Below the pieces are notes generated by a model that was not told where the DNA came from, did not search any database, and saw only the letters and a list, made by a program, of their open reading frames with translations. DNA of 20,729 nt from a virus. Below are positions 2-18,987 of the stretch, one piece after another; the stretch's first letter is position 1; every line of letters starts with the position of its first letter. Location: IMG/VR virus record IMGVR_UViG_3300038469_000279, positions 1 to 20,729 of that record; one strand, written 5' to 3'. A program made the translations under genes and the position numbers.

Positions 2-1798
2 GTGGCCGTCGTGCCGGACGGTGCGGACAAGGCGTTCACCTGGGACGAGCGTGCGCTCGCGGACGATGTGATGCGCGCCTCGCTGGCCCGCCTGCTGATG
101 AACCCGCGCGTGCGGAAGGACGGCCACTTCCTGCGGTACGACGTGCACGCCGTTGAGCAGGGGCTCGGGATCCGCGTCCAGGGGTGGGGCTACGACACGC
201 GGCTCGCGCGGAAGCTCCTGGACCCGGAGGCGGACGGGCGGTTGGAGGCGATGGAAGAACTCGTCGGCATGGGCGGCGCGAAGGAGGAGTCGGACGAAGC
301 TCTCGTGGTCCTGCGCGCGCGCCGTCCCGCCCCCGTCGCGGAGGGTCAGGAGCCGCTGTTCGGGTCGGCGGCGCCGCCGGCCTCGGACGACCGGATGAAG
401 TACCTGTTCGCCGACCTCCCGCCGGACGTGCTCCGGCGCCGGAACGCGACGGACGCCATCGCCACGCGCCGGTTGTCGTCGCTCCTCGTGCCCCAGGTGG
501 ACGCGGAGCCGTGGTCGCGGCGGATCTTCCACGAACTGCTGGCGCCGCTGAACGACGCGATCGCGGAGATGGAGCGGAACGGGATCCGGGTGAACGTCGC
601 CGCGCTGGAGGCGGCTGACTCGTACTTCGGCGCGTGCCAGTCGGACATCCTCCCGCGCCTCCGCGCCTACGGCGACTTCGACCCCGACAGCCCGCAGCAG
701 GTCTCGGAACTCCTCTTCGGCAAGCTCGGGTTGAAGCCGCAACGCACGACGGAAGCCGGCCACGCCTCGACGGACCGGGACGCGCTCGACTCGATCGCAC
801 ACGACCACCCCATCGTGCCGGACCTGATCGCGTATCGCTGGTTCGCCCACATGCGGAACACCTACGGCTGCGGCGAGGACGGCCGCGGCGGGCTCAAGGC
901 GCACGTCCGACCGGACGGGCGGGTCCACCCGTGGTACGACCCCGGCGCGACCCGCGTCGGGCGGCTGAACTGCACGGACCCGTCGCTCCACACGATCCCG
1001 CGCGAGGAGTCGGAGGACCACCGGAAGGAGGGCAAGCTGATCCGCGACGCCTTCGTCGCGGATCCGGGGTGGAAGCTGCTCTCGGCCGACTACTCGCAGG
1101 TCGAGCTTCGCGTGCTCGCGTACCTGAGCGGCGACGAGGAGATGATCGGCGTCTACAAGCGCGGAGAGGACCTCCACCAGCGGACGGCGGAAGGGATCGC
1201 CCGGCAGGCGTGGGGCATGCGGCCGGAGGAGGTCGGGAAGGTCCAGAGGGACAAGGCGAAGATCGTCAACTTCGCGCTCGTGTACGGCAAGGGCGACGAG
1301 TCGTTGGCGACGGACCTCGGGGTGTCGGCGGGGGAGGCACGGCGGATCCGGGACGCCATCTTCGGTCGGTTTCCCCGCGTGGCAGAGTACCGCGATGCTT
1401 GCCTCGCGCACGCGAGGCGCAAGGGCGAGGTCTGGACGAAGTTCGACGGCGAGCGAGGCCGGCGACGGTCCCTGTGGTCGATCGCGGCGGAGGAGGGCGA
1501 GGTGCGGTCCCGCGCGGAGCACGGGTCGCTGCACACCCCGGTCTGCGGGACGGCCGCCGACCTATCCCTTCGCAGCATCGTGGAGTGCGTGCGCTGGATT
1601 CGCGCCGACGCGATCCCCGTGCGCCTCGTGCTCTCGGTGCACGACGCGCTGGTGTTCGAGGTGCGCGAGGACGTTCTGGCCGAGGCGGGGTACCAGATCA
1701 AGCGGATCATGGAGGGGTGGTCGTTGGGCGACGTTCCGCTCGTCGTGGCCCTCAAGGCCGGCGACTCCTGGGGGTCGCTGGCAAAGGTCGCGGCGTAG
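2..1798 (+). CDS. polA: DNA polymerase I family (family A), 5'-truncated
   Basis: This is a template-directed DNA polymerase, probably the phage replicase. The frame is open from the window edge, so the true start and the first exonuclease motif lie upstream. Residues about 25-160 resemble the 3'-5' exonuclease domain: GHFLRYD (41-47) stands for Exo II and RNATD (146-150) for Exo III. The palm and fingers follow: motif A DYSQVELR at 363, motif B R416-x3-K420-x3-F424-x3-YG ending at 429, and motif C VHDAL with H547 and D548. The residue after the catalytic Asp is Ala, where most family members have Glu. The Exo II Asn is Phe and the Exo III Tyr is Arg, although both acidic residues remain, so proofreading may be altered. 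Phe at the E. coli 762-equivalent is the wild-type bacterial residue. The TAG stop overlaps the first base of a putative promoter element. The family call is secure. Confidence 0.95.
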   Translation: MAVVPDGADKAFTWDERALADDVMRASLARLLMNPRVRKDGHFLRYDVHAVEQGLGIRVQGWGYDTRLARKLLDPEADGRLEAMEELVGMGGAKEESDEALVVLRARRPAPVAEGQEPLFGSAAPPASDDRMKYLFADLPPDVLRRRNATDAIATRRLSSLLVPQVDAEPWSRRIFHELLAPLNDAIAEMERNGIRVNVAALEAADSYFGACQSDILPRLRAYGDFDPDSPQQVSELLFGKLGLKPQRTTEAGHASTDRDALDSIAHDHPIVPDLIAYRWFAHMRNTYGCGEDGRGGLKAHVRPDGRVHPWYDPGATRVGRLNCTDPSLHTIPREESEDHRKEGKLIRDAFVADPGWKLLSADYSQVELRVLAYLSGDEEMIGVYKRGEDLHQRTAEGIARQAWGMRPEEVGKVQRDKAKIVNFALVYGKGDESLATDLGVSAGEARRIRDAIFGRFPRVAEYRDACLAHARRKGEVWTKFDGERGRRRSLWSIAAEEGEVRSRAEHGSLHTPVCGTAADLSLRSIVECVRWIRADAIPVRLVLSVHDALVFEVREDVLAEAGYQIKRIMEGWSLGDVPLVVALKAGDSWGSLAKVAA

Positions 1799-1827
1799 GA
1801 AAAATCGTGGCCGCTCGTGCAAGTCTA
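1798..1827 (+). promoter_or_regulatory. Recurrent bipartite element, copy 1 (putative phage promoter)
   Basis: GGAAAA at 1798-1803, twelve bases, then CGTGCAAGTCTA at 1816-1827. The same arrangement with the same spacing occurs at 13488 and 18679. If GGAAAA is a -35 and AAGTCT (1821-1826) a -10, the spacer is 17 bases. The element ends 17 bases before the ATG at 1845, with GGAGG between. It would drive the recombination gene cluster. Recurrence and spacing are seen; promoter function is inferred. Confidence 0.6.
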
Positions 1828-1844: not shown

Positions 1845-2396
1845 ATGAGCGAGAAGGCGAAGCTGCGAGAGTTGGACGTGGACGCGTTCCTCGTCGAGTG
1901 CGTCCAGATCCTGCCCGAGGCGCTGAACGAGGAGTTCGTGCGGATGCCCTCCGACCTCGCGTACTGGAACGCCCGCTTCGCGGCGGCGCTGCGCCGCTAC
2001 CTGGAGGCCAAGGTCGCGCTCGACGAGGTGCTCGTGGCGTGCAAGCAGACCGTCGCGGAGGCGGAGGCGACCGCCTACCAGGACTGCCGCGCCGCGTTGC
2101 TCGTGGAGCACTCGCGCCCCACCGAGTCGATGGTGGCGGCGGCGGTCGAGACGCATGCCCCGCTGCTCGAAGCGCGGAAGACCGCACTGGAGCGGGAGCG
2201 TCAGTTTCGGCAGGCGCTGATCGAGGCGGAGGTGGAGAAGGCTCACCTGTACGGCGTGGTGGACGCGATCCGCACGAAGAAGGAGATGCTGATCTCGCTC
2301 GGCGCGCACATCCGCGCCGAGATGCAGCACGACCCGGTGCTCCGCGAGCAGTCGCGGAGCGGCACGGAGATCGGGCGGAAGGGGGGCGACGAGTAG
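1845..2396 (+). CDS. Helical protein, candidate UvsY-like recombination mediator
   Basis: This 183-residue protein looks mostly alpha-helical and charged, and has no obvious enzyme motif. The ATG is preceded by ACGGAGGTGAGCG, a strong ribosome site, and by the recurrent element. Its layout recalls T4 UvsY: an early aromatic segment (LAYWNARF, about 44-51), a middle amphipathic helix, a TES start to a second helical stretch near 92, and a C-terminal helix containing VVDAIRTKKEMLISLG (about 138-153). UvsY helps load the RecA-like UvsX protein onto SSB-coated DNA. The next genes encode a gp32-like SSB and RecA, which is the expected company for a mediator. The resemblance is by pattern only and helical proteins can mislead, so a generic phage helical protein remains possible. 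Confidence 0.4.
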   Translation: MSEKAKLRELDVDAFLVECVQILPEALNEEFVRMPSDLAYWNARFAAALRRYLEAKVALDEVLVACKQTVAEAEATAYQDCRAALLVEHSRPTESMVAAAVETHAPLLEARKTALERERQFRQALIEAEVEKAHLYGVVDAIRTKKEMLISLGAHIRAEMQHDPVLREQSRSGTEIGRKGGDE

Positions 2397-2462
2397 CTCC
2401 GAGCGGGCGGCGAGCGCGCCAGAGGCATGCGAAGCGAGTTGAAACGAAACGGAGAACATGCG

Positions 2463-3296
2463 ATGGACGACCAGAAGGGAATCCAGAAGACGGAGCCGGG
2501 CGGCGCGATCGAGGAGTTCGGCGCGTTCGACCCGAAGGCGCTCGACGACGAGGACAAGTTCGTCGAGCAGGCGGAGGCGGGCGACTTCCTCAAGCTGCCG
2601 GAGGGCGACACCATCGTGCGCGCCTACCCCCCGCCGGCGGGCGAGGCGATGCCGTACCTCCTCGTGTACGAGCACGCGATCAAGGCGCCGGGGATGAACT
2701 TCCCCTTCCGCTTCCCGTGCCCCCGCCTGATGGCGCGGCAGCCGTGCTCGTTCTGCGCGAAGGCGGAGGCGCTCAAGGCGTCGGGGAACAAGGCCGACCG
2801 GAAGCTCGCGGGCGAACTCCAGCCGAGGCGACGCGGGTACATGGACGTGATCGGTCGGGCGAACCCCGAGCACGGCCCGTTCATCTTCGCCTTCGGCACG
2901 ATGATCCACAACGACCTCAAGGAGATCCTCCGCAAGCCGGCGAAGGGCGGGGACTTCTCGCACGCGGTCAACGGCCGCGACCTCATCATCACCCGCAAGG
3001 GGACGACGCGCGACGACACCGAATACAGCGTCACGGCGAGCATGGAGAAGTCGCCGTTCGCGCCCGACGCGGAGACGATGCGGCGGTGGCTCGGCTTGCG
3101 GCACGACTTCTCGCGGTTCGTGCTGCCGAAGACGGACGCCGAGAACCAGCGGGACCTGGAGGAGGCCGCCGACCGGGCGGAGTCCGGTGGGGCGGAGTCG
3201 CGCACGACGCGCGGGGGGACGAACGGCCGCGGGGCCGGCAGGCCGCCGCGGTTGCACGCGAGCATCGACGACGACGACGACAAACCGTTCGGATAG
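2463..3296 (+). CDS. ssb: Single-stranded DNA-binding protein, T4 gp32-like
   Basis: This 277-residue protein probably coats ssDNA during replication and recombination. A putative zinc site, H71-x14-C86-x8-C95-x2-C98, closely matches the His-Cys-Cys-Cys spacing of T4 gp32 (H64, C77, C87, C90). Before it lies FLKLPEGDTIVRAYPPP (42-58), and after it a strand-rich core with many aromatic and basic residues. The tail is Ser/Gly/Arg-rich (about 238-265) and ends in five Asp followed by KPFG, like the acidic SSB tip that docks partner proteins. I chose the ATG at 2463 because ACGGAG sits about eight bases upstream. An in-frame ATG at 2427 would add 12 residues but lacks such a site. RecA and the UvsY-like gene flank it, which supports the role. 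Function is inferred from motifs and context. Confidence 0.8.
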   Translation: MDDQKGIQKTEPGGAIEEFGAFDPKALDDEDKFVEQAEAGDFLKLPEGDTIVRAYPPPAGEAMPYLLVYEHAIKAPGMNFPFRFPCPRLMARQPCSFCAKAEALKASGNKADRKLAGELQPRRRGYMDVIGRANPEHGPFIFAFGTMIHNDLKEILRKPAKGGDFSHAVNGRDLIITRKGTTRDDTEYSVTASMEKSPFAPDAETMRRWLGLRHDFSRFVLPKTDAENQRDLEEAADRAESGGAESRTTRGGTNGRGAGRPPRLHASIDDDDDKPFG

Positions 3297-3360: not shown

Positions 3361-3606
3361 ATGGCGAAGCGGAAGCGAAGGTTGAGCGAGCGGTTGATGG
3401 GAGCGCGAGTTCGGTTGGACGCGCTGCGCGGCGAAGTCGAGCGCGGCCAGCGGCGCTTCCAGATCAAGGACGGCAAGGCCACGCGGTCGTCTGCGCGACG
3501 ACTCGCCCGGCTGAAGGTGCTGGAGCGGGCGTGTCGGCGGGTGGAACGCGAGTTGCACCGCAAGCGCGAGCGGATCGCGGGGCGGCGGAAGGGGGACCCG
3601 AAATGA
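3361..3606 (+). CDS. Small basic helical protein, unknown
   Basis: This 81-residue protein is extremely rich in Arg and Lys and looks like one long helix or coiled coil, with repeated LxxxRxRL-type spacing. It starts at an ATG preceded by CAGGAGGCGGCCG, a clear ribosome site. The stop overlaps the recA start (AATGA), so the two are probably translationally coupled. Charge and position between ssb and recA suggest a nucleic-acid-binding accessory, but no family is recognised. The preceding gap has strong hairpins, which may set its expression apart from ssb. Confidence 0.65.
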
Positions 3607-4631
3607 ATCGTCAGGAGAAGGCGAAGGTGGTCGAGACCGCTGTCGCCGGGATCCACAAGCTGTTCGGCGCGGCGTCCATCATCTCGCTCGGCGACGATGC
3701 CGCGATCGAGCAGGTCGAAGTCATTCCGACCGGCTCTCTTGGCCTCGACTTGGCGACCGGCGTCGGCGGGTATCCGCGGGGGCGAATCGTCGAGGCGTTT
3801 GGATCAGAGTCGGGCGGCAAGACGACGATGGCGCTGCACGCGATCGCAGAGGCACAGAAGCTTGGCGGCATCGCGGCGTTCGTGGACGCGGAGCATTCGC
3901 TCGACGTGCGGTACGCCGCCGCCATCGGCGTACAGATCGACAAGCTGTGGCTCTCGCAACCGGACTGCGGTGAGCAAGCGCTGGAGATCGTCGAGCAGTT
4001 GACCCGTTCGGGCGGCGTGGACATCATTGTCGTGGACTCGGTGGCGGCGCTTACTCCTCGCTCGGAGATCGAAGGCGAGATGGGCGACGCGCAGATGGGC
4101 GCGCAGGCGCGGCTGATGAGTCAGGCGCTCCGCAAGTTGGTCGCGGTCGCGCACCGCACCGGGACATGCGTATTCTTCGTGAATCAGCTTCGGATGAAGA
4201 TCGGCGTGATGTTCGGCAACCCTGAAACGACGACCGGCGGGAACGCGCTGAAGTTCTACGCCTCGATGCGTCTGGACGTCCGACGCGCGGGCGCGGCGAC
4301 CAAGGAGGGGGATGTCGCCATCGCGAACCACACGCGAGTCAAGGTGGTGAAGAACAAGGTGGCGGCCCCCTTCCGCGAGGCGGAGTTCGACATCCGCTAC
4401 GGGCACGGGATCGACGCGGAAGCGGAGATTCTCGACTTGGCGGTCGCCGTCGAGGTCGTCGAGAAGTCTGGCGCGTGGTTTTCCTACGGTAAGGAACGCA
4501 TCGGTCAGGGGCGAGAGGCGGCGGTGCGGTGGCTGCGCGAAAACCCGGTGGTCTGCGTCGAGGTTGCGGAGGCCGTGCGACTCGTGACGGGGAAGGTCGC
4601 GGCGGCGGCGTCTTCCGAGGCGGGCAGATGA
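3603..4631 (+). CDS. recA: RecA recombinase
   Basis: ATP-dependent strand-exchange recombinase that forms filaments on ssDNA, here with a likely role in phage recombination, repair and recombination-dependent replication. Its length of 342 residues is close to bacterial RecA. Walker A is GSESGGKTT (67-75), the RecA ES-S-GKT with Gly in the second Ser place. The catalytic Glu lies in FVDAEHSLD (E97). Walker B is [11 protein letters not shown] (about 140-150), followed by the loop region [15 protein letters not shown], the [17 protein letters not shown] segment and [12 protein letters not shown]. The full bacterial-type core is present, not the shorter UvsX form. I chose the ATG at 3603, overlapping the preceding stop, because upstream extension would run into the previous gene. 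The next gene starts at ATGA on its stop. Confidence 0.96.
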
Positions 4632-4848: not shown

Positions 4849-5151
4849 ATGACCCACGACGAGATCAAGAAGGCCGCAATCTCGGTGCTTATGATCGCCC
4901 GGCAGAAGCTGAAGCAACGGACGAGGTGTACGGCGCACATCGTGGTCGTGGCGCTGGAGGACGAATCCGGAGGGGATATCCACCTCATCTCAGACACCGG
5001 GGACGGTCTGCGGGACTTCCTCACCCGCTTCCCGAAGGTGGCCGAGAGTCTCCCGTTCGGGTTCGCTCACGTCGTCGGGCACGTGGTCGAGGACCCCGAC
5101 GATCTATGCTCGTGCGAGTGTCTTGAACCTCTTCCAACGGGCAGGGTGTGA
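4849..5151 (+). CDS. Small protein of unknown function
   Basis: This 100-residue protein starts at the ATG preceded by GAAGGAGGACGCG. An in-frame GTG at 4834 lies before that ribosome site and is unlikely to be used. The N-terminal helix (THDEIKKAAISVLMIARQKL) leads into a hydrophobic strand (TAHIVVVAL), then a DIHLISDTGDGLRDFLTRFP segment and a Cys pair near the end (C-S-C). It contains no recognisable domain. It lies in the tight run between recA and the nuclease subunit. Confidence 0.65.
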   Translation: MTHDEIKKAAISVLMIARQKLKQRTRCTAHIVVVALEDESGGDIHLISDTGDGLRDFLTRFPKVAESLPFGFAHVVGHVVEDPDDLCSCECLEPLPTGRV

Positions 5152-5168
5152 GGAGAAGGGAACCCACG

Positions 5169-5501
5169 ATGAATAAAGAAACGGGAGAGAAGACCGAGGG
5201 CGTGAGCGAGATCGCGGAACAGCCGGTGCCGGAAGATCGAACCACGTGCCCGTTCTGCGGCGGCGTCGAGTCGCTTCGGCGGGGGACCGCCGGGGATTCC
5301 CTCCGCTGCGACGACTGCGGCGTGGCGGTGTACTTCCACGACCACCGCTTCTATTCGCTCGCGCACGTGCGCGTGTGGGGCACGCTGAAGCGCGCGATCC
5401 GCGGTCACGAGCGGGAGGCAGAGCGCCTGAGCGACCTGCTCGACGATCTCCGCTGTGGGAGAAAGGAGCCGGCCGTCGTGCTCCGGGAGTCGGAACTGTA
5501 G
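5169..5501 (+). CDS. Zinc-ribbon protein, unknown
   Basis: This 110-residue protein carries two CxxC pairs (C27/C30 in CPFCGG and C47/C50 in CDDCG), the classic zinc-ribbon pattern seen in many small nucleic-acid-binding proteins. After it comes YFHDHRFYSLAHVRVW and then a charged C-terminal helix. The ATG at 5169 follows GAGGAGAAGG at a workable distance. An in-frame GTG at 5148 would put that site inside the gene. The stop TAG directly abuts the TTG start of the nuclease subunit gene, so coupled translation is likely. The partner is unknown. Confidence 0.7.
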   Translation: MNKETGEKTEGVSEIAEQPVPEDRTTCPFCGGVESLRRGTAGDSLRCDDCGVAVYFHDHRFYSLAHVRVWGTLKRAIRGHEREAERLSDLLDDLRCGRKEPAVVLRESEL

Positions 5502-6608
5502 TTGGCGAAGCTCGCCGCCATCGCCGACCCGCACGTCTGGAACCACCGCGCCTTCGCGGGTTCCTACGAGGCGGGCCTGAACGCGCGGTGCCGCGCCGCG
5601 GTCGCCACGTTCCGCGAAGCCTGCGCCGTGGCGAGGGCGGAAGGGTGCGACGACCTCCTCGTGCTCGGAGACGTGTTCGACGGCGTGGACCCGTCGCCGC
5701 AGATCGTCCGCGCCGTGCGCGACGTGCTGTGGTCGGCAGGAATGCGCGTTCACGTCCTCCCCGGCAACCACGACCTCGTGAGCGGAGCGCTCGGGGACAA
5801 CTCGCTCGGGCCGCTGGAGAAGCCTGATCTCGTGTACGTCCACGAGCGCCCGATCGTGGTCGTCGTGCCTGGGTGGGAGGTCTGGTTCGTTCCGCACGAG
5901 CCGGGCGACGGCGCCGCGAACGTGGCGGCCGCCGCGTCCGACCTCGCGGGCAGGAGCGCGGCGGCAGGTCTGGACCTCCCCTGCCGCCGCCTCCTGGCCC
6001 TCCACTACGGGGTCGCGGACGAGTCCACCCCGCCGTACCTCTCGCGCGGCAAGGACGCGATCCAGGTGGACGACCTGTTCGACCTCATGGGGGCGCACGA
6101 GATCCACGCGACCGTCGCGGGACACTGGCATCGCGGGAGGATGTGGTCTCGCGACGAGGGGCGCGCGGTCGTCCAGGTAGGCGGACTCTGCCCGCGCGAC
6201 TTCCGCGACGCGGGCGCGGAGGATTACGGTCGCGTCGTGGTCTTCGACGGCAATCGGGTGGAGTCGCACGTCGTGCCCGGCGACCGCTTCGCCGTCGTGC
6301 GGAGCGTCGAGCAGCAGGAGGAGGTCGCGCGGCTCGTGCAGCCGCCGAACCGGCTGTACCTCCGTCGCGTGTTCCCGGCGGCCGTCGCGGACGCCCCGAC
6401 TCCGGAGGGGGTGGAGACCGAGGACGTGCCGGACCTCGTCGAAGCGACCGTCGCGACTCGCTCGGCCGCGCTCGCCGCGCGAGGGAAGGAGACGCTCGAC
6501 GAGGCGCTCGCGGCGTTCGTCGCGGAGATGCCGCTCGCGGAAGGCGTGGACCGGGACGCGGTGCTCTCGCGGTGCCGCGAGTTCTTGGTTGGCGCGGAGA
6601 ACGGCTAA
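5502..6608 (+). CDS. sbcD: Metallophosphoesterase, SbcD/Mre11/T4 gp47-type nuclease subunit
   Basis: Nuclease subunit of a recombination exonuclease that, with its Rad50/SbcC-type partner, trims DNA ends and hairpins using divalent metals. All metallophosphoesterase motifs are present: DPH (D9, H11), GDVFD (56-60), GNHD (88-91), the His of LALHYG (H168) and GHWH (207-210). Its length of 368 residues is typical. The start is probably a TTG immediately after the previous stop; the weaker initiator may be offset by coupling. The C-terminal part (about 260-368) is acidic and helical, as expected for a partner-binding or capping region. The ATPase partner is not adjacent but begins about 2.7 kb downstream at 9335, with small genes between. 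Confidence 0.88.
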   Translation: MAKLAAIADPHVWNHRAFAGSYEAGLNARCRAAVATFREACAVARAEGCDDLLVLGDVFDGVDPSPQIVRAVRDVLWSAGMRVHVLPGNHDLVSGALGDNSLGPLEKPDLVYVHERPIVVVVPGWEVWFVPHEPGDGAANVAAAASDLAGRSAAAGLDLPCRRLLALHYGVADESTPPYLSRGKDAIQVDDLFDLMGAHEIHATVAGHWHRGRMWSRDEGRAVVQVGGLCPRDFRDAGAEDYGRVVVFDGNRVESHVVPGDRFAVVRSVEQQEEVARLVQPPNRLYLRRVFPAAVADAPTPEGVETEDVPDLVEATVATRSAALAARGKETLDEALAAFVAEMPLAEGVDRDAVLSRCREFLVGAENG

Positions 6609-6853
6609 TGTCCTGGCGAAGCGTTCACGTGACCGACGCGGGTCGCATCGTTCTAGAACTGGCCGTCGATCGCGGTGCGTTCGAGGTTGGGATTCGCGGG
6701 AGTACGATGCACTGGTTTCGGGTGGGGGCTGACCGGTCGCTGTGTGGTCGTGTCCGGTATCATCGCATGCGGGAGATCGGACCGCACTGCTTCTCCCTGC
6801 ACACGGCGGCGTGTTCGTACTGCATCGCGCGGCTCGGGCGGGAGCGATCGTGA
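6608..6853 (+). CDS. Small Cys-containing protein, unknown
   Basis: This 81-residue protein starts at TAATG, overlapping the nuclease gene stop. Beta-rich N-terminal strands are followed by HWFRVG (35-40) and four Cys: C46 in SLCGR, C61, and C69/C72 in CSYC. These could hold one zinc ion. Similar small Cys proteins with a histidine-tryptophan and CGR segment are common in phages of high-GC hosts, but I cannot name a family. Its stop overlaps the GTG start of the sigma-like gene. Confidence 0.65.
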   Translation: MSWRSVHVTDAGRIVLELAVDRGAFEVGIRGSTMHWFRVGADRSLCGRVRYHRMREIGPHCFSLHTAACSYCIARLGRERS

Positions 6854-7296
6854 GCATCTACGCCCGCGACTCCTACATCATGGCGCACGCCGCTGGGCAG
6901 CGGCTTCACGATCCGTTTGGGCGACGGCAGCGACGTTGCGCCGCGCTCGCCATCTACGTCGACGCGGCGGGAGTCGGGGACGCGGATGCCGCGTGGGAGT
7001 TCGTCGAGCATGTGTTCCTGGACCTCGCGCAACACGCGGCCAGGCCCGAGCAGCGGAAGATGTGGCACCGCACTCTCGACGCGCTGACGCTCCGCTACGT
7101 CCATGGACTCACGTTGACGCGCATCGGCGAATCGCTCCGCGAGCCGGTCACGAGGGAGCGCGTGCGGCAGATCCTCGCCAAGGGCCTTCGCGTGCTGAGG
7201 CACCCGGTGCGCTTTCAGACGTTTCGCGCCGCCGTCGCGCAGAGCTTGACGAGACGTGCAACCCGATCAGGCTGGTGTCGCGATGACCGATGCTGA
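6850..7296 (+). CDS. Sigma-70 region 4 (helix-turn-helix) protein, putative phage transcription factor
   Basis: This 148-residue protein has a clear C-terminal sigma-70 region 4 domain (about 78-121): LRYVHGLTLTRIGESL, then TRERVRQILAKGLRVLRHP. This closely matches the -35-recognition helix-turn-helix of primary sigma factors. Two extra residues (REPV instead of the usual GV) sit in the turn before TRERVRQ. Region 2, which binds the -10, is not recognisable; the first 70 residues are helical and unassigned. It may therefore act as a region-4-only regulator of host polymerase, or a minimal sigma factor. The GTG start overlaps the preceding stop (GTGA) after GGGAG; an in-frame ATG at 6880 is an alternative. 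The recurrent bipartite element is a candidate target, which is inference. Confidence 0.8.
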   Translation: MSIYARDSYIMAHAAGQRLHDPFGRRQRRCAALAIYVDAAGVGDADAAWEFVEHVFLDLAQHAARPEQRKMWHRTLDALTLRYVHGLTLTRIGESLREPVTRERVRQILAKGLRVLRHPVRFQTFRAAVAQSLTRRATRSGWCRDDRC

Positions 7297-8096: not shown

Positions 8097-8356
8097 TCCC
8101 GAAGGACTTGCTGCATGCTTGGCAGAACGCACTCGCGGAGCAGCCGGAGGTGTGGGTCGTCGAAGTTCACCGCGAGTGGACCGGCAACTTGTACGATTCT
8201 GCGGAAGCAGCGGAACACGAAGTTGCGGCTTGCAAGCGCCGAGGTAAACGGGCGGTTCGTGCCGTCTGTTGGGGTTGCTTGCACAGCGTCAGGTTGTCGG
8301 AGGCACGATGGTCTTCGGAAGTGTGCCGTGGCGACTTGGCGCCAGAGGCTTGCTGA
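8093..8356 (+). CDS. Small protein of unknown function with a CxxC pair
   Basis: This 87-residue protein begins at an ATG after AAGGAGGGATCG, one of the best ribosome sites in the block. The N-terminal helix (PKDLLHAWQNAL) is followed by VWVVEVHREWTGNLY, a helix with a lone Cys, and VCWGCLHS (C59, C62), with further Cys near the end. A metal-binding role is possible. The family is unknown. The stop overlaps the DUF4326 gene start as TGATG. Confidence 0.6.
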   Translation: MIPKDLLHAWQNALAEQPEVWVVEVHREWTGNLYDSAEAAEHEVAACKRRGKRAVRAVCWGCLHSVRLSEARWSSEVCRGDLAPEAC

Positions 8357-8814
8357 TGCCGTGGGTGGGCAGAACGATGGATCGAAAGCGTGCGCTGCGA
8401 CGCACGGCTGAACCGGATAAGCTTGGGTCCGTTCGAGTTGTTCGGCTGCGCACGGAAGACGCGCGCGGCGCGATTTCGGTCGCTCGCCCGTCGGCGCTCG
8501 GCAATCCGTTTCCACTCCTCGGAGGCAGTAACGCATGCAACCGCATGCGCGTGATCAAGTTGTACCGGGAGTGGCTGACCTGTCGCCTCCGCGACGACCC
8601 GAGGGTGATTCGTGCGATGGCGCGGATCGTGACAGAACTGCGTGCAGGTCACGACGTGAAGCTGGCCTGCTGGTGCGCGCCGCTTCCGTGCCATGCGGCG
8701 GTCGTCGGTGAGGTTGCTTTGCGTTTGGCGAGTGCGAATCCAACTGACGATCCCGTGATTCGTGATGCCGATCGAGCCTACCGTGATGATCTCGCGCATG
8801 GGAGGATCGAATGA
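8356..8814 (+). CDS. DUF4326 family protein
   Basis: This 152-residue protein belongs to the DUF4326 family, common in phages and of unknown biochemical role. Diagnostic parts are the RPSALGNPF segment (44-52), the KLYREWL helix (68-74) and the highly conserved LACWCAPLPCH motif (103-113), whose Cys and His residues may form a metal or active site. The start is taken at the ATG overlapping the preceding stop (TGATG). A second ATG about 20 bases downstream is out of frame, and an in-frame one at residue 8 is the main alternative. The following gene starts in an ATGA overlap. Confidence 0.82.
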   Translation: MPWVGRTMDRKRALRRTAEPDKLGSVRVVRLRTEDARGAISVARPSALGNPFPLLGGSNACNRMRVIKLYREWLTCRLRDDPRVIRAMARIVTELRAGHDVKLACWCAPLPCHAAVVGEVALRLASANPTDDPVIRDADRAYRDDLAHGRIE

Positions 8815-9335
8815 TGGGCTGCCGAGGAACGAGGAAGGTGACTCGCTACGTGCAGGGAACGACCGGCGTTGGCATCGAGGCCGCGTTCGACTGCCCCGGT
8901 TGCGAGGACTGCCGATCTTGGTTCTCCGAACGTCCGATGCCGGGCCAGTCACCAGAAACGCCGGAGCAGGCGACTGCTCGGCGGGAACTCGTTGCCGCCG
9001 CCGCCGAAGCATCCGAACGGTTTGGTGACGACGAACTCGAACGCAGGTGCCCACCGCGCGTCACCGTTCCTTCTGATCTTGCGTGCTGGCAAGAGTCGCT
9101 TCACGGGACTCTCGGCTTCGAGTGGATCGCTCCGAACACGGACGCATTCGAAGTTCGTATCGTGGCCACGCCGATGGGCCATGCGGTGTTGTCCGTCGAG
9201 GCCAGGGGCTCCTCGAAGTTCGAGGTTGCTTACGATGACACGTCGGGCGAAGTGCCTTGCCGGGAACTCGCGGAACGCGTCTTGCAGGCGGCGGTCGGAT
9301 GCGGAGTCGTCCGGCACAGGATCGGCGGCGTCTGA
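8811..9335 (+). CDS. Cys-motif protein, unknown
   Basis: This 174-residue protein starts at an ATGA overlap preceded by GGGAGGATCG. The N-terminus has C4 followed by RGT, then C28-x2-C31-x2-C34 (CPGCEDC), likely one metal site. The N-terminus of the coiled-coil gene at 19328 has the same order of elements. The middle (about 45-75) is helical and acidic. The rest looks beta-rich (EVRIVATPMGHAVLSVEARG) and ends with a helix and VVRHRIGG. No enzyme motif is recognised. It directly precedes, and overlaps, the ATPase gene. Confidence 0.6.
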   Translation: MMGCRGTRKVTRYVQGTTGVGIEAAFDCPGCEDCRSWFSERPMPGQSPETPEQATARRELVAAAAEASERFGDDELERRCPPRVTVPSDLACWQESLHGTLGFEWIAPNTDAFEVRIVATPMGHAVLSVEARGSSKFEVAYDDTSGEVPCRELAERVLQAAVGCGVVRHRIGGV

Positions 9336-11047
9336 TGCACGTCCGCTCGCTGAGTCTCGACCACTTCCTCCGCCATGAAGGGAAGACGACTCTCTCGATG
9401 CCCGAGCGCGGCATCGTGACGGTGACAGGCCCGAACGAGTCGGGCAAATCATCGCTCGTCGAAGCGGTGTCGTGGGGCGTGTGGGGTTGGACGCTCCGCG
9501 GGGAGTTCCCGCTCGATGGGCCTGGGGCAGTCACGATCGAGGCCGACCGCTGCGTCGTGTCGCGATGGGTCGAGAAGGGGCGGAAGGTCGAACTGGCCTG
9601 GAGGACGACGGCGGGCGATCCGATCAACGAGGCGACGTTCCCCACGACGACGAAGGCGCAGGAGGCGTTGGAGCGAGTCGTGGGCGACTGGGAGACGTGG
9701 TGCCAGACGCACGTCTTTTCATCGGACGACGCTGCGCGATGGACGCTCGCGACGGACGGGGAGCGGAAGCGGTTCGTCGAGGGGTTGCTCCGGTACGATT
9801 TCGACGGCCCGCTCGACCGTTGCCGGAAGGCGTTGCGCGAGGCGAAGGAGGCGCAGGGTCGGTGCGAGGCACGGCTCGTCGAAGTGAACGCCGGGATCGT
9901 CAACCAGGAGCAACGGCTCGTGGAGAACCGAGCGGTGCTCGACCGCGCGGTCCCGGACGGTCCTGCCCCTGCTCCCCCGGCCGCTACCGGATCCCGCGCG
10001 GAGGAGATCGCTCGCCTCGACGTGCAGATCAAGGGCGGCGAGAAGTTGCTCCTCGCCCTTCGCCGGAAGGCGTCCGACGTTGGCAGGGTTTCCGCGGAGA
10101 CGGAAGTGGAGCTTCGGTTGGCGCGGGATCGGTGGAACAAGCTCCGTTCCGGTCGGTGCCCGACGTGCCACCAGGAGATCGGGGACGCGCTCCAGGACGC
10201 GCTTCGGCGGGCCGTGAGCGAGGCCGAGGCCGCCTCGGCGGCGGGGGCGCGGCTGGCCGAAGAGACTCGGGCGGCGGTCGAGGCAGAACTCGCCGAGGTT
10301 CAGGAGGAGCAGTCGGCTTTCGGCCGGGAGCACGCGGCGCTCCAGGCGGCGGAGGACCGAGCGGCGGAGGACGCGCGCGCCTGGGAGGCCGACCGACGGC
10401 GCCGCGAGGGTGCGGCGGCCGTTCGCGCTTCCGCCGAGAAGTTCGCCGCGCTGGCCCGCGAGGCGCTCCGGGCGCTGACCGAGGAGAAGGCTACCCTCGA
10501 AGCGTCGCTCGCGGGGTACCGGGTTGACGTCGCCGTCCTGATCGCGTGCGAAGAGGTGCTCGGGCTGCGCGGCGTTCGGGCCCAGGTCGTCGCGCGGACG
10601 CTCTCCGGGCTGGAGCAAGCTGCGAACGTGTTCCTCTGCCGCATCGCGCGCCCCGGCGTGGCCGTGCGCCTGCGGCCGTACACGGAGAAGAAGGGGGGCG
10701 GCGTGGCCGACTCCATCGCCTTCGAGTGGAGGGACGGGGAGGCGTGGCGGCCATACCGCACCGCGTCGAGCGGCGCTCGCCGCCGGCTCGACGTGGCGCT
10801 CCTGCTCGCGCTCGCGGAGGTGGCCGCCGCCGCGAGCGGGAACGCGAGCGAGAACGCGGATCTGTATTGTGATGAGGTCTTCGATGCGTTAGACTCTACC
10901 GGGATCGGGGCGGTTTCGAGCCTTCTGCACGAGATGGCCGAGACTCGGATGATCATGGTGATTTCTCACAACCCCGATCTTGTAGGAGGGCTGGAGCCAT
11001 GCACGTTGAGACTGCGCGTCGAGAACGGAACGGTTTCGAGCTACTGA
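9335..11047 (+). CDS. sbcC: SbcC/Rad50/T4 gp46-type recombination ATPase
   Basis: ATPase subunit that partners the SbcD-type nuclease (5502-6608) in DNA end processing. Its 570 residues match the compact T4 gp46 form and not the long bacterial SbcC. Walker A is GPNESGKSS (32-40). Charged coiled-coil arms (about 170-270 and 285-400) flank the zinc hook RCPTC (C275, C278). The ABC signature is a divergent SSGARRRLDVALLLAL, Walker B is LYCDEVFDALD (D513, E514), and the H-loop His is H545 in ISHNPDL. The start is the ATG overlapping the previous stop (TGATG). The last 49 bases overlap the HNH/methyltransferase gene. All elements needed for activity are present. Confidence 0.93.
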   Translation: MHVRSLSLDHFLRHEGKTTLSMPERGIVTVTGPNESGKSSLVEAVSWGVWGWTLRGEFPLDGPGAVTIEADRCVVSRWVEKGRKVELAWRTTAGDPINEATFPTTTKAQEALERVVGDWETWCQTHVFSSDDAARWTLATDGERKRFVEGLLRYDFDGPLDRCRKALREAKEAQGRCEARLVEVNAGIVNQEQRLVENRAVLDRAVPDGPAPAPPAATGSRAEEIARLDVQIKGGEKLLLALRRKASDVGRVSAETEVELRLARDRWNKLRSGRCPTCHQEIGDALQDALRRAVSEAEAASAAGARLAEETRAAVEAELAEVQEEQSAFGREHAALQAAEDRAAEDARAWEADRRRREGAAAVRASAEKFAALAREALRALTEEKATLEASLAGYRVDVAVLIACEEVLGLRGVRAQVVARTLSGLEQAANVFLCRIARPGVAVRLRPYTEKKGGGVADSIAFEWRDGEAWRPYRTASSGARRRLDVALLLALAEVAAAASGNASENADLYCDEVFDALDSTGIGAVSSLLHEMAETRMIMVISHNPDLVGGLEPCTLRLRVENGTVSSY

Positions 11048-11592
11048 CGCCGGAGCAGATTGCTCGCTTCTGGTCCAAGATCGCACGGAGGGGCGAAGAA
11101 GCCTGCTGGATCTGGCGCGGCGCACGGGGAGGACACTGGCAGCCCTTCCGAGGAGGCTATTCGTTCAGCGCCAAACGGCTTGCCGCTTTGCTGACTGGTG
11201 CCCCGGTTCCGACGTTCGATCTTCACATGCTTCCTACGTGTGGAACTTCCGATTGCATCAATCCGCGACACCTGCGTTCGACGATGCGTGAGCGCTTCGA
11301 TGCACTGGTGAGAAAAACGGACGCGTGCTGGCTGTGGGAGATCGATCGTCCTCATCGATCGGAGTACCATCCCACGATGAAACCAGTGGAACTGTTCGCG
11401 CGTGCGATTCGCAACTCGTCGACTCGCGGCGATCTCGTTCTTGATCCGTTCGTCGGTTCGGGGACGGCGATCGTCGCCTGCGAGGAAACCGCTCGGGTGT
11501 GTTGCGCGCTGGACATCGATCCCGCGTGTTGCGCGGTTGCAATCCAGCGTTGGGTGGACCAGACGGGCGAGAAGCCCAAGAGGCTCGACTGA
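10999..11592 (+). CDS. HNH-like domain fused to the C-terminal part of a DNA methyltransferase
   Basis: This 197-residue protein joins two unrelated pieces. Residues 17-105 look like a phage HNH domain: LTPEQIARFWSKI, CWIWRGA (36-42), then LHMLPTCGTSDCINPRHL with H76, C81, C86, N88 and H91. The usual AHR of this family reads AKR (58-60). Residues 110-190 match the C-terminus of beta-class N4/N6 methyltransferases: EIDRPHRSEYHPTMKPVEL (114-132), then the SAM-binding motif DPFVGSGTA (149-157) and LDIDP (171-175). The catalytic DPPY/DPPW part, normally upstream in this class, is missing. It could be a decayed methyltransferase interrupted by an HNH gene, or a functional chimera. The ATG overlaps sbcC by 49 bases after GGAGCC. 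Confidence 0.75.
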   Translation: MHVETARRERNGFELLTPEQIARFWSKIARRGEEACWIWRGARGGHWQPFRGGYSFSAKRLAALLTGAPVPTFDLHMLPTCGTSDCINPRHLRSTMRERFDALVRKTDACWLWEIDRPHRSEYHPTMKPVELFARAIRNSSTRGDLVLDPFVGSGTAIVACEETARVCCALDIDPACCAVAIQRWVDQTGEKPKRLD

Positions 11593-12642: not shown

Positions 12643-13518
12643 ATGCGGGAGCAAACTCACCGCGAGCTAACGCGGCTCGTCGCGCGCGAGACGGGTTGGC
12701 CGGCGGAACTCGCGAACCTGATGGGGGAGGAGGCCGCGACGCCGGACCGCGTCCACGTCCTCGCGATCGACGGCCTGGGGTGCAAGCCGTTCGGGTACGA
12801 AGCCTTCTGCCTCTGCCACTTCGGCCTGCGGCGGGTCGAGGAGAAGGGGGGCCGGCGCGGGTTCACGATGACCGGCTATCGCTGGAAGCACGACGCGACG
12901 GCGGTGCACCTCGACCTCCCGAATCGGAACGTGATCGCCCGGCCCGAGCAGTGGCGGTGGCCGGTCACCCCCGAGATGCGCTTGCAGGAGCCGTTGTACC
13001 GGCTCGCTTCTCACGGCGGGCTCAACCTCGCCGCCGACGAGGTCGCGTTCCCGGCGGCGTCCACGTACGCCGACTGGGAGGAGTGGTGCATCGGGAAGAT
13101 CCCGCGCGATTGGGGGCAGGACGCGGCGGAGGAGGCGCTCGCGCACTTCGTCGCCTTTGCGGCGCACAAGGTCCAAGACCTCGCGCAACCGTTCCACGCC
13201 GTCGGCTTGCTCCTGGGGGGTCACGCGGCGTTCGAAGGGGACCAGCAGGAGTTGTTCCTGCGTTCGGGAGACTCCATCTGCGCGCGGCTGAAAAAGGCGA
13301 ACGTCGCGGGGAGGGGGAACTTCCGCGCCATCGCGACGGGGGCGGCCGGCGCCGCCTACGTTGCTCCGGGTGCGCTCATGGACGACATGCTCAGACCGAC
13401 GAGGCGGGCGCTGCGCGTCAGCGCGTCCGTCGCGCTCGCCGTCGGACTCACCGCCGAACTGCTGACCTACGCCCGGAAGACGTACCTGGAAAAGCCGAGG
13501 GCTCGCAGGCAAGTCTAG
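12643..13518 (+). CDS. Protein with zinc phospholipase C / P1 nuclease-type metal signature
   Basis: This 291-residue protein contains the ligand pattern of zinc-dependent phospholipases C and S1/P1 nucleases: an early THRE (H6), PD (D35), then HKVQDLAQPFH (H175-x3-D179-x5-H185) and HAAFE (H194-x3-E198). Clostridial alpha-toxin and Bacillus PC-PLC have HxxxD, a His six residues after that Asp, then HxxxE; spacing to the last pair is shorter here. The W/H-rich insert (about 77-110) and the Cys pair CLC near 56 are unassigned. No signal peptide is visible, unlike secreted PLCs, so the cytoplasm is likely. The substrate (phospholipid, DNA/RNA or nucleotide) is unknown. The start ATG has only a weak ribosome site. 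The last bases hold the second recurrent element. Confidence 0.55.
   Translation: MREQTHRELTRLVARETGWPAELANLMGEEAATPDRVHVLAIDGLGCKPFGYEAFCLCHFGLRRVEEKGGRRGFTMTGYRWKHDATAVHLDLPNRNVIARPEQWRWPVTPEMRLQEPLYRLASHGGLNLAADEVAFPAASTYADWEEWCIGKIPRDWGQDAAEEALAHFVAFAAHKVQDLAQPFHAVGLLLGGHAAFEGDQQELFLRSGDSICARLKKANVAGRGNFRAIATGAAGAAYVAPGALMDDMLRPTRRALRVSASVALAVGLTAELLTYARKTYLEKPRARRQV
13488..13517 (+). promoter_or_regulatory. Recurrent bipartite element, copy 2
   Basis: GGAAAA at 13488-13493, twelve bases, then CAGGCAAGTCTA at 13506-13517, overlapping the 3' end of the preceding gene. Spacing is identical to copies 1 and 3. It lies 22 bases before the likely ATG at 13540, whose ribosome site is GGAGG at 13530. 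It would serve the gene group containing the two methyltransferases. Function as a promoter is inferred. Confidence 0.55.
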
Positions 13519-13539
13519 CTGCATCCCATGGAGGTGATG

Positions 13540-13755
13540 ATGCAGGTCGGAATCGCCGTGATGCCCGAAACGATCCCCGTTCTCTCGATCTCGTGCGAGG
13601 GCGTGCCTCGCGTGGACGAGGTGGTGCTCCTGCAACTCGCGGGCGACGCGGAGCCGTTGGACTACCGCATCGTCCGCGTGGTGTGGGGCTTGAAAGATGC
13701 CAGCACCGAACGGCCGTACCTTTCGCCTACCGCCGTCGTCGCGCGGCCGTGGTGA
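13540..13755 (+). CDS. Small protein of unknown function
   Basis: This 71-residue protein is strand-rich: QVGIAVMPETIPVLSISC, then DEVVLLQLAG and YRIVRVVWGL, ending in TAVVARPW. I chose the ATG at 13540 because GGAGG (13530-13534) lies five bases upstream. In-frame ATGs at 13528 and 13537 sit on or before that site. It is the first gene after the second recurrent element. The compact beta pattern resembles other small phage proteins in this window, but no family is recognised. Confidence 0.65.
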   Translation: MQVGIAVMPETIPVLSISCEGVPRVDEVVLLQLAGDAEPLDYRIVRVVWGLKDASTERPYLSPTAVVARPW

Positions 13756-13765
13756 GCGCGGCGGA

Positions 13766-13785
13766 GGGGGCGACGTGACGGAGCG
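13766..13785 (+). repeat. 20-base direct repeat at a methyltransferase start, copy 1
   Basis: The 20 bases spanning the ribosome site and start codon, GGGGGCGACGTGACGGAGCG, recur exactly at 15378-15397 around the start of the other methyltransferase. GCGGAG precedes both copies. The two proteins therefore share the N-terminus V/M-T-E-R. Confidence 0.85.
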
Positions 13786-15316
13786 CCCGCCCATCATCCG
13801 CGCCTCCTACGGCCTGCCCGGCGAGTTGGTGGCCGACCTGTTCGCCGGAGGTGGTGGCGCGTCCTGCGGAATCGAGGACGCGCTCGCTCGTCCTCCCGAT
13901 CTCGCCATCAACCACAGCGCCGAGGCAATCGCCATGCACGCGGCCAATCACCCCGACACGAAGCACTACCAGTCGGACGTGTGGGAAGTGGATCCGCGCG
14001 AGGCGTGCGGCTCGCGTCCGGTGGGGCTGCTGTGGGCGAGCCCGGACTGCACGCACCATTCTCGCGCCCGTGGCGGGAAGCCGCGCGACCACGGGATCCG
14101 CTCGCTCGCGTGGGTGGTCGTGAAGTGGGCCAAGGAGGTCGGTCCCCGGTTGATCTGCGTCGAGAATGTCGAGGAGTTCGCGCAGTGGGGACCGCTCGAT
14201 GACGCGGGCCAGCCGATCAAGGAGCGCGCCGGGGAGACGTTCCGCGAGTGGACCGGCGCCCTGTCCGATGCGGGGTACAGCGTGGGTTTCCGCTCCCTGG
14301 TCGCCGCGGACTACGGGACACCGACGACGCGCAAGCGCCTGTTTCTCGTGGCGCGGCGGGGTGGCGGCGGCGTCGCCTGGCCGGAGCCCACACACGGCGC
14401 CGGGAGGCCCGCGGCGTGGCGACCGGCCGCGGACGTGATCGACTGGTCGCTGCCGTGCCCGAGCATCTTCGTGCGCGAGCGCCCGCTCGCGGACGCGACC
14501 CTGCGGCGCATCGCGGCGGGCGTCCGCAAGTACGTCTTGGAATGCGCGGAACCGTTCATCGTGCCGATGACCCACCACGATGCGTCGAACCGCTGTCGCG
14601 GGATGGATGATCCACTGCCAACAATCACGGCGGCACACCGCGGCGAACTGGCCCTTTGCGCCCCGACGCTCATCACCACGGGATACGGCGAGCGCGACGG
14701 CCAAGCGCCGCGCGTCCCGGGGCTCGACAAGCCCCTTGGGACCGTGGTCGCGGGTGGACAGAAGCACGCCCTCGTCGCCGCGTTCCTCGCCAAGCACTTC
14801 GGCGGTCCCAACGGGCACCAGACGCCGGGCGTGGATCTCCGGCGACCGATGGGCACCGTGACGGGGAGGGACCACCACGGGCTCGCCGTGGCGTGGCTGG
14901 AGAAGTTCTACGGGTCGGCACGATCTGGCGCTCCGCTCACGGAACCCGCTCCCACAATCACGGGGCAGGCATGCGGGGGCCACTTGGCGGAAGTCCGCGC
15001 GTTCCTCATCGGCTACTACTCGAGCGGCGGCAGCCAGCAACAGGGCCTCTTCGACCCGCTGCACACGGTCACCGGGAAGGCGCGATTCGGCCTCGTAACG
15101 GTCCACGGTTCGCTGTACCAACTCGTGGACATCGGCCTGCGGATGCTGTCGCCGCGCGAGTTGTTCCTCGCGCAGGGATTTCCCGAGGACTACGAGATCG
15201 CGCCAGTCTGCAACGGGAAGCCGATCACGAAGACGAGTCAGGTGCTACTCGCCGGCAACGCGGTGCCGCGGCAGCCGGTCGCGGCCATCGTCTCCGTCAA
15301 CGCGAGGGCGGCATGA
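13775..15316 (+). CDS. DNA (cytosine-5) methyltransferase with repeated target-recognition region
   Basis: Transfers a methyl group from SAM to C5 of cytosine, most likely protecting phage DNA from host restriction. Motif I is DLFAGGGGAS (21-30). The catalytic Cys is C92 in ASPDCTHHS, the phage-type version of PC. Motif VI is ENV (130-132), motif VIII is TRKRLFLVAR (about 188-197), and motif X includes GNAVP near the C-terminus. At 513 residues it is long because residues about 261-443 are five imperfect repeats (see the repeat entry) where the target-recognition domain lies. The GTG start follows GCGGAGGGGG. A longer in-frame ATG at 13697 would overlap the previous gene and is not favoured. 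No cognate endonuclease is visible, so an orphan methyltransferase is likely. Confidence 0.92.
   Translation: MTERPPIIRASYGLPGELVADLFAGGGGASCGIEDALARPPDLAINHSAEAIAMHAANHPDTKHYQSDVWEVDPREACGSRPVGLLWASPDCTHHSRARGGKPRDHGIRSLAWVVVKWAKEVGPRLICVENVEEFAQWGPLDDAGQPIKERAGETFREWTGALSDAGYSVGFRSLVAADYGTPTTRKRLFLVARRGGGGVAWPEPTHGAGRPAAWRPAADVIDWSLPCPSIFVRERPLADATLRRIAAGVRKYVLECAEPFIVPMTHHDASNRCRGMDDPLPTITAAHRGELALCAPTLITTGYGERDGQAPRVPGLDKPLGTVVAGGQKHALVAAFLAKHFGGPNGHQTPGVDLRRPMGTVTGRDHHGLAVAWLEKFYGSARSGAPLTEPAPTITGQACGGHLAEVRAFLIGYYSSGGSQQQGLFDPLHTVTGKARFGLVTVHGSLYQLVDIGLRMLSPRELFLAQGFPEDYEIAPVCNGKPITKTSQVLLAGNAVPRQPVAAIVSVNARAA
14555..15103 (+). repeat. Five imperfect protein repeats inside the C5 methyltransferase
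   Basis: The translated segment holds five units of about 33-40 residues. Each has a [DKR/E]P[LM/A]xT[IV][TV] core followed by a His/Gly-containing turn and a hydrophobic end. Cores are DPLPTITAAHRGELAL, KPLGTVVAGGQKHALV, RPMGTVTGRDHHGLAV, EPAPTITGQACGGHLA and DPLHTVTGKARFGLVT. Between cores, segments such as LITTGYG, LAKHFGG, LEKFYGS and LIGYYSS align. They occupy the place of the target-recognition domain. Confidence 0.8.
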
Positions 15317-15390
15317 CTCCAGCGCAACGCCACCTGCTCGAACTGCTCGCCTTGCTCAAGCTGGCGATGGCGGAGGTGGGGGCGACGTGA
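15313..15390 (+). CDS. 25-residue microORF coupled to both methyltransferases
   Basis: A 25-codon frame starts at ATGA on the stop of the C5 methyltransferase and ends at GTGA on the start of the amino-methyltransferase. The peptide is a Leu-rich amphipathic helix (HLLELLALLKLAMAEVGA). It may be a real micropeptide, or simply a relay that carries ribosomes from one methyltransferase gene to the next. Its 3' end contains the ribosome site for the next gene. The double overlap is the main evidence. Confidence 0.45.
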   Translation: MTPAQRHLLELLALLKLAMAEVGAT

Positions 15391-15397
15391 CGGAGCG
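15378..15397 (+). repeat. 20-base direct repeat at a methyltransferase start, copy 2
   Basis: Exact copy of 13766-13785, again spanning ribosome site, GTG start and first codons. It is preceded by GCGGAGGT, two bases longer than at the first copy. Confidence 0.85.
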
Positions 15398-16136
15398 GAT
15401 CGGCCCATACGAACTCGGCCGCGTTCACCGTGCCGATTGCCTGGACGCGATGCGCGAGCTGCCGGACGGGTGCGTTGATGCCGTGGTGACGGATCCACCG
15501 TATGACGCCAAGACCCACGCCGGGGCTAGGTATTCGGCGCGCGGAACGGAATCGAAGATCGCGTTCGAGCCGCTAGCTGACGTTGGCGCGGCCGTCCGCG
15601 AGATGTTGCGCCTCGCCCGTGGGTGGGTTGTCTGTTTCTGTTCGCTGGAGATGTTCGGCGCATACCGCGACGCATCCGGTGAATCGTGGGTGCGCGCCGG
15701 ATTCTGGCGCAGGCCGGATGGTTGCCCGCAGTTCACCGGAGATCGCCCGGGGCAACCGGGCGAGGGCATTGCCATCATGCACCGACCGGGGCGTAAGGAA
15801 TGGAACGGCGGCGGGCGGCACGGATTCTGGACGTGCGGTGTCGAGCACGAGGACCGGAGACACGAGACGCAGAAGCCGGTCGGATTGCTGGTAGACATCG
15901 TGCGCGACTTCACCGCGCCCGGCGCCACGATCCTAGACTGCTACTCTGGCTATGCGACCACGGCCGTTGCGTGTATGCGCCTCGGCCGTCGCTTCCTCGG
16001 CTTCGAGATCGAGCAACGGTGGGTTGACCTCGCCAACGCGCGCATCGCCGCCGAGCGCGAGCGGTTGGGCGAGCTGAGCGCGGAGAACACGACGAGGGGC
16101 CAACAGGTGGGGCTCTTCGCGGAGGTGCCAAAGTGA
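15387..16136 (+). CDS. DNA amino-methyltransferase (N6-adenine or N4-cytosine)
   Basis: SAM-dependent methylation of an exocyclic amino group in DNA. The catalytic motif IV is TDPPY (35-39). The later HETQKPVGLL (159-168) and the SAM-binding motif ILDCYSGYATT (182-192), followed by GFEIEQRW (205-212), give the order typical of beta-class enzymes. The SAM motif is DCYSGYAT and not the common DPFxGxGT, a glycine change that may still permit binding. Its 249 residues are usual for small phage enzymes. The GTG start overlaps the microORF stop and sits in the 20-base repeat. The stop overlaps the next GTG (GTGA). Specificity cannot be read from the sequence. DPPY is found in both N6A and N4C enzymes. 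Confidence 0.9.
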   Translation: MTERIGPYELGRVHRADCLDAMRELPDGCVDAVVTDPPYDAKTHAGARYSARGTESKIAFEPLADVGAAVREMLRLARGWVVCFCSLEMFGAYRDASGESWVRAGFWRRPDGCPQFTGDRPGQPGEGIAIMHRPGRKEWNGGGRHGFWTCGVEHEDRRHETQKPVGLLVDIVRDFTAPGATILDCYSGYATTAVACMRLGRRFLGFEIEQRWVDLANARIAAERERLGELSAENTTRGQQVGLFAEVPK

Positions 16137-17888: not shown

Positions 17889-17917
17889 TTGACCGCGCCT
17901 CCGCCGACCGCTATGGT
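17889..17917 (+). promoter_or_regulatory. Sigma-70-type promoter, TTGACC-N17-TATGGT
   Basis: TTGACC (17889-17894) and TATGGT (17912-17917) are separated by exactly 17 bases in the longest gene-free gap of the window. In such GC-rich DNA this match is notable. It would transcribe the exported protein gene starting at 17977. It differs in sequence from the recurrent GGAAAA element, suggesting that two promoter classes are in use. Confidence 0.6.
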
Positions 17918-18678: not shown

Positions 18679-18708
18679 GGAAAACTTCGCCCCGTCCGTG
18701 CAAGTCTA
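18679..18708 (+). promoter_or_regulatory. Recurrent bipartite element, copy 3
   Basis: GGAAAA at 18679-18684, twelve bases, then CGTGCAAGTCTA at 18697-18708, identical in its 12-base half to copy 1. It lies fully in the 60-base gap and ends 18 bases before the ATG at 18727, with AGAGGTG between. It would serve the cluster 18727 to the window end. Promoter function is inferred. Confidence 0.6.
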
Positions 18709-18726: not shown

Positions 18727-18987
18727 ATGAAGCCACTGAGCGACGACGAGATCGCGGACGTGCTGCGTGGGCGTGGCGAAGCCGTGCCCGGCGCTCTCCC
18801 CCGCCTCGCTGCGGAGGTGAAGCGGCTGCGGGAGGGGGTGAGGCACATGGTGGTGGCAAGTGGATCGTGGCCCTGGAAACTCTCGCCCGAGCAACTAGAA
18901 GTCGCATGCAAGCTGGTTGACGGGTGTACGAAGATCGCCGACAACCTGCTCGCGGGCCGCGAGTGGAACGGGAAGGAGGCGGAGTGA
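18727..18987 (+). CDS. Small helical protein, unknown
   Basis: This 86-residue protein follows the third recurrent element and an AGAGGTG ribosome site. It starts with LSDDEIADVLRGRGEAV and continues with helices (LPRLAAEVKRLREGVRHMV and SPEQLEVACKLVDGCTKIADNLL). There is no recognised domain. It is the first gene of its cluster, and its stop overlaps the next start (TGATG). Confidence 0.65.
   Translation: MKPLSDDEIADVLRGRGEAVPGALPRLAAEVKRLREGVRHMVVASGSWPWKLSPEQLEVACKLVDGCTKIADNLLAGREWNGKEAE

Follow-up and report, generated by a model that had tools for sequence, protein, structure and literature searches.

The analysed window spans an entire IMG/VR virus record (20,729 bases), which is probably a fragment, since no completeness is given for it and reading frames reach both of its ends. 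The GC content of the record is 64-73%, and its + strand carries all apparent genes. According to Pfam, PHROG and NCBIfam profile searches, the record encodes a replication-repair module with an A-family DNA polymerase, a gp32-like single-strand binding protein (SSB), RecA, SbcD and SbcC (Table 1). Between sbcD and sbcC lies a gene for a 148-aa protein whose sole Pfam domain is a sigma-70 region 4 (Sigma70_r4, PF04545; the match scores 37.6 bits, where the cut-off is 24.1), and a recurrent two-box element precedes three other genes of the window. Neither tRNAs nor Rfam families were found in these 20.7 kb.

Other reading frames of the record encode a small zinc-ribbon protein (5148-5501) with a below-threshold match to the restriction alleviation family Lar (PF14354, E=5.6e-5) and a DUF4326 protein (8269-8814; PF14216, E=3e-14). 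A Dcm-type cytosine methyltransferase (13697-15316) adjoins a CcrM-like adenine methyltransferase (15387-16136), and a partial methylase is present besides at 10999-11592. The C-terminal part of this last ORF matches an N6/N4 DNA methylase at its end only (PF01555 positions 142-219) and its N-terminal part appears HNH nuclease-like by eye (CINPRHL motif), as though a homing-type insertion had taken the place of the methylase start.

Table 1. Positions of the module genes, the sigma region 4 gene and its parts, and the promoter-like elements in the window.
Feature	Position	Strand	Evidence or context
A-family DNA polymerase	2-1798	+	
Two-box element, copy 1	1798..1827	+	17 nt ahead of the ATG of ORF 1845-2396
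ORF between polymerase and SSB genes	1845-2396	+	
gp32-like single-strand binding protein	2427-3296	+	
RecA	3603-4631	+	
SbcD	5502-6608	+	
Sigma region-4-only protein gene, 148 aa	6850..7296	+	ORF, PF04545, codon bias
Sigma-70 region 4 domain, residues 76-118	7075..7203	+	PF04545 E=1.6e-9; AlphaFold2 pLDDT about 85-96
Codons of R97-E98-P99, lengthened HTH turn	7138..7146	+	Alignment to RpoD and RpoE
Recognition helix VTRERVRQILAKGLRVLR, primary-sigma type	7147..7200	+	8/8 tested RpoD -35-contact residues kept
SbcC	about 9332-11047	+	
Two-box element, copy 2	13488..13517	+	Overlaps the stop codon of the preceding ORF; upstream of ORF 13528-13755
Sigma-70-like promoter match TTGACC-N17-TATGGT (weak)	17889..17917	+	Only match outside a clear coding region
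Two-box element, copy 3	18679..18708	+	In the gap preceding ORF 18727-18987

The lone sigma region 4 protein

The ORF of the 148-aa protein begins with a GTG codon that overlaps the stop of the preceding gene (GTGA), and its GC content by codon position (0.71/0.51/0.82) is typical for the coding frames of this phage. A preliminary description of this DNA, made from the letters alone, had called region 4 near-canonical and had recognised no region 2. Both points are confirmed by the profile searches, in which PF04545 was matched (Table 1) and region 2 (PF04542) was found by Pfam neither in the protein nor in six frames of the whole record. The protein is thus not a complete sigma-70 family sigma factor, which would include region 2. 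Nor does it have the features of an ECF sigma factor, namely PF08281 (Sigma70_r4_2) or TIGR02937 together with region 2: PF08281 gave no match to the protein, and the ECF superfamily model TIGR02937 reached 21.4 bits, under its cut-off of 42.9. The top NCBIfam matches are mostly RpoD-type models, the ECF superfamily model being weaker, and the closest PDB matches are RpoD region 4. A lone region-4 HTH with its -35-contact residues present corresponds in sequence to a minimal (region-4-only) phage sigma factor.

An AlphaFold2 model of the protein, built from 17 sequences, has a mean pLDDT of 72.8 and a pTM of 0.61; it is confident over region 4 only, with pLDDT of about 46-55 at residues 1-40. 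Foldseek returned nothing at E<=0.001 with this model. Its weak matches mix sigma region 4 with DnaA C-terminal domains, and the structure search for this reason decides nothing.

In order to compare single residues, the RpoD sequence of E. coli K-12 was taken from its genome as reference, together with literature lists of 16 -35-acting (PMC4943231) and six core-binding RpoD residues. Twelve of the 16 -35 residues are identical in the 148-aa protein, including 8/8 in the recognition helix; those kept include T583, R584, E585, R586, R588, Q589, K593 and R596, and the motif VTRERVRQI occupies residues 100-108. The four altered positions (D570, which is missing, Y571L, E574T and E575R) all lie outside the helix. 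Identity of the helix is 15/19 with RpoD, as opposed to 4/19 with the ECF (group IV) sigma RpoE, where among R171, S172, F175 and R176 only R171 aligns with an identical residue. Since the helix is of the primary-sigma type and the -35-contact residues are retained, the protein should, to judge from its sequence, prefer TTGACA-like DNA, although its specificity could be shifted given the four differing positions outside the helix. RpoD itself reads TTGACA-N17-TATAAT (PMC4943231). Of the core-binding positions, three are kept and three altered (E555T, F563Y and I565H), and docking to the polymerase flap is uncertain because half of this list has changed. The protein further differs from RpoD, a primary (group 1) sigma factor, in lacking regions 1-3 and in a region 4.1 loop that is four residues shorter.

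The HTH turn (residues 96-101 in the AlphaFold2 model) is two residues longer than in E. coli RpoD (REPV versus DV), as had been described before. As a special feature of this protein the insertion does not hold up: RpoE has a turn of the same length (MDCPV), six residues separating the conserved A/G from the V there as in the phage protein, and the longer turn recurs in two other phage TRERVRQ proteins, L081 (DPPV) and L126 (NPPV), of which the former additionally carries region 2-like sequence. Nearly all remaining proteins of the scanned set have a turn of RpoD length. The longer turn is a rare variant with precedent.

The recurrent two-box element

The element GGAAAA-N15-GCAAGTCTA is present in exactly three copies, all on the + strand and with no others in the record, and a backwards control pattern gave 0 matches, which establishes as real the recurrence noticed earlier. 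Each copy lies directly upstream of a GAGGTG Shine-Dalgarno sequence and a start codon, on the coding strand. The 9-mer GCAAGTCTA was seen 3 times against 0.009 expected per strand under a dinucleotide model; GGAAAA alone is unremarkable (6 seen, 3.95 expected). As any three-fold box pair of such kind arose in 5/200 shuffles, the weight of the element lies in its position ahead of genes and in its low expectation. The spacers are dissimilar (identity <=47%), a pattern that favours a pair of contact boxes over a repeat that has been copied.

All three copies fit GGAAA-N20-GTC and with it the ECF-type promoter pattern of a GGAA -35 box and a GTC or GTT 17-20 bp from GGAAN; their distance of 20 bp is the long extreme of the published ECF range. 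Promoters of ECF sigma factors combine GGAA-type -35 boxes with GTC or GTT -10 elements (PMC6411747, PMC11588781), as in GGAAYA-N17-GTT for Mtb sigma-H (PMC6411747), GGAAT-N18-20-GTT for C. glutamicum sigma-H and the GGAAC and GTC used in E. coli sigma-E structures (PMC11588781); the -35 box of SigW is GAAAC (PMC6713349). The conserved GCAA of the element has no explanation from the ECF consensus. Based on these sequence features, the element is probably a separate ECF-type phage promoter class. With sigma-70 spacing it may alternatively be read as GGAAAA-N17-AAGTCT.

Pfam profiles run over six frames detected no ECF sigma gene in the 20.7-kb fragment. Among viral contigs, the exact element gave 47 chance-like matches, one per contig and nearly all in AT-richer phages, with 0 in a recognisable comparable operon. 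Sigma-70-like promoter matches numbered 2 in the record, with 0.7 expected, and the one that falls outside clear coding sequence (Table 1) is a weak candidate for recognition of the ordinary host type or the sigma-4 type.

Relatives, rival readings and proposed role

A scan of phage contigs with the conserved part of region 4 yielded 79 loci, with 75 ORFs not cut off at their upstream end, and 56/75 of these, some of them redundant, are of 260 aa or less. Among 17 representatives, including the protein of the window itself, Pfam found PF04545 in 17/17, region 2 in 1/17 and a second HTH (HTH_3) in 2/17. By eye, the architectures differ: some proteins are a bare region 4 (65-100 aa), one family shares a motif of SRNDE type at the N-terminus, and in another the N-terminal half is Xre-like. 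Proteins of L055, L060, L068, L093, L121 and their kin, a recurring phage family, join such an Xre-like half (by eye) to sigma region 4. Region-4-only proteins thus appear to be common in phages, and a survey of jumbo phages has described 'minimal' single-HTH sigma factors (group 2) that bind promoter and flap (PMC7824862). These resemble the 148-aa protein in being phage-encoded region-4 HTHs without region 2; the phage studied here differs in carrying an A-family DNA polymerase. With dozens of such proteins in phage contigs by one scan and this published precedent, what had been termed an unusual minimal switch is an already-known protein kind. We found little functional work on it in the literature.

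No close relatives were recovered among viral contigs by the sigma-4 protein, PolA, a PolA motif or SSB, and the sole hit among genome contigs was a Bacillus protein, unrelated although its helix is similar. The RecA scan led to three distant syntenic phages (L183, L137 and L198), whose shared genes are 29-61% identical. They keep the order polA - (g2) - ssb - recA - sbcD - (sbcC), suggesting a conserved replication-repair cassette. Both a PF04545 gene and the element are absent from the available sequence of these phages, whose records may be incomplete. As the only syntenic relatives found have neither, the check for co-occurrence is uninformative; the joint absence would fit a paired gain, two gains independent of each other, or divergence together with incomplete records. 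In other phages with a lone region 4, a strict search detected no comparable rigid two-box element except in the L055 group, where the repeats look like coding repeats.

Presence in one phage is the sole tie between protein and element, and a direct link between them is unlikely. The preliminary description had proposed that the protein selects GGAAAA; this is not supported, as the recognition helix is of primary-sigma type and the element reads like an ECF-type promoter. In a split-sigma version of such a link, the protein would substitute for host region 4 and read GGAAAA as a novel -35 box, and host region 2 or another phage factor would read the -10 element. In its favour, AAGTCT in the sigma-70-spaced reading retains the A at -10 position 2 and the T at position 6, gene and elements share one strand of one phage, and T4 gp33 and gp55 provide a precedent for a split sigma (PMC2988020). 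We nevertheless regard it as rather unlikely, given the TTGACA-reading type of the helix, the lack, by the strict search, of such a rigid element in other region-4-only phages (bar the probable coding repeats of the L055 group) and the syntenic relatives, which lend no support from co-occurrence. A phage-host two-part sigma, in which a region-4-only factor with an ECF-length turn and a primary-sigma helix sends host polymerase to GGAAAA promoters and host region 2 reads the -10, seems to us quite improbable. T4 gp33 is a late co-activator and flap-bound sigma-4 mimic that reads no DNA sequence (PMC2988020). In our working model the 148-aa protein is likewise a small phage stand-in for sigma region 4, but it keeps the DNA-reading residues, and the searches used revealed no sequence similarity to gp33.

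Other readings detach the protein from sigma function. It could be an HTH protein that activates or represses on its own, like Ltr, ArpU and RinA, which are likewise small phage transcription regulators; it would then bind a phage operator and contact host sigma without acting as a sigma part. Small activators that control late genes from the end of an early module are documented (Ltr, phage phi13), several region-4 relatives have a second HTH, and TRERVRQI-type helices are found also in large proteins that are not sigma-like in appearance (L130). Yet neither NCBIfam nor Pfam models of these regulator families match the protein, and the RpoD -35-contact residues are strongly retained, which together make this alternative unlikely. 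A Q-like antiterminator whose sigma-4-like fold would engage the polymerase flap is suggested by a weak match to PHROG 79 (antitermination Q-like, E=0.018); however, the match covers the region-4 HTH only and is far below the sigma matches, and no terminator readthrough context was seen, so that we give this reading very little credence. Equally improbable is that a full sigma factor has decayed here to a remnant without function: the missing region 2 and the low-confidence N-terminus would fit decay, but the ORF is intact with codon-position bias in both halves, the -35-contact helix is complete, the gene position is translationally coupled, and many independent phage proteins have the same architecture.

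We posit, with reasonable though not strong confidence, that the 148-aa protein is a minimal sigma-like regulator that binds RNA polymerase and/or TTGACA-type DNA, and that the two-box element belongs to a separate, ECF-type promoter class. Besides its primary-sigma-type region 4, the protein would have an N-terminal extension that is poorly defined and about 60 residues long. Docking is most likely on the beta-flap of host RNA polymerase, which is the usual site of sigma region 4 on the polymerase, and/or the protein may bind -35-like DNA of the TTGACA kind; either activity could modulate promoters of phage or host. The reader of GGAAAA-N15-GCAAGTCTA is probably not this protein and would instead be an ECF sigma that comes from the host or is encoded outside the 20.7-kb fragment. 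The earlier idea of a factor that redirects host polymerase thus survives in part: a polymerase-associated regulator with region 4 only is plausible, whereas its selection of GGAAAA is not upheld.

The three-copy ECF-like element suggests that part of the replication operons of this phage is under a promoter class that the housekeeping sigma of the host should not read. If region-4-only proteins replace host sigma region 4, they would constitute a widespread minimal means of retargeting polymerase.
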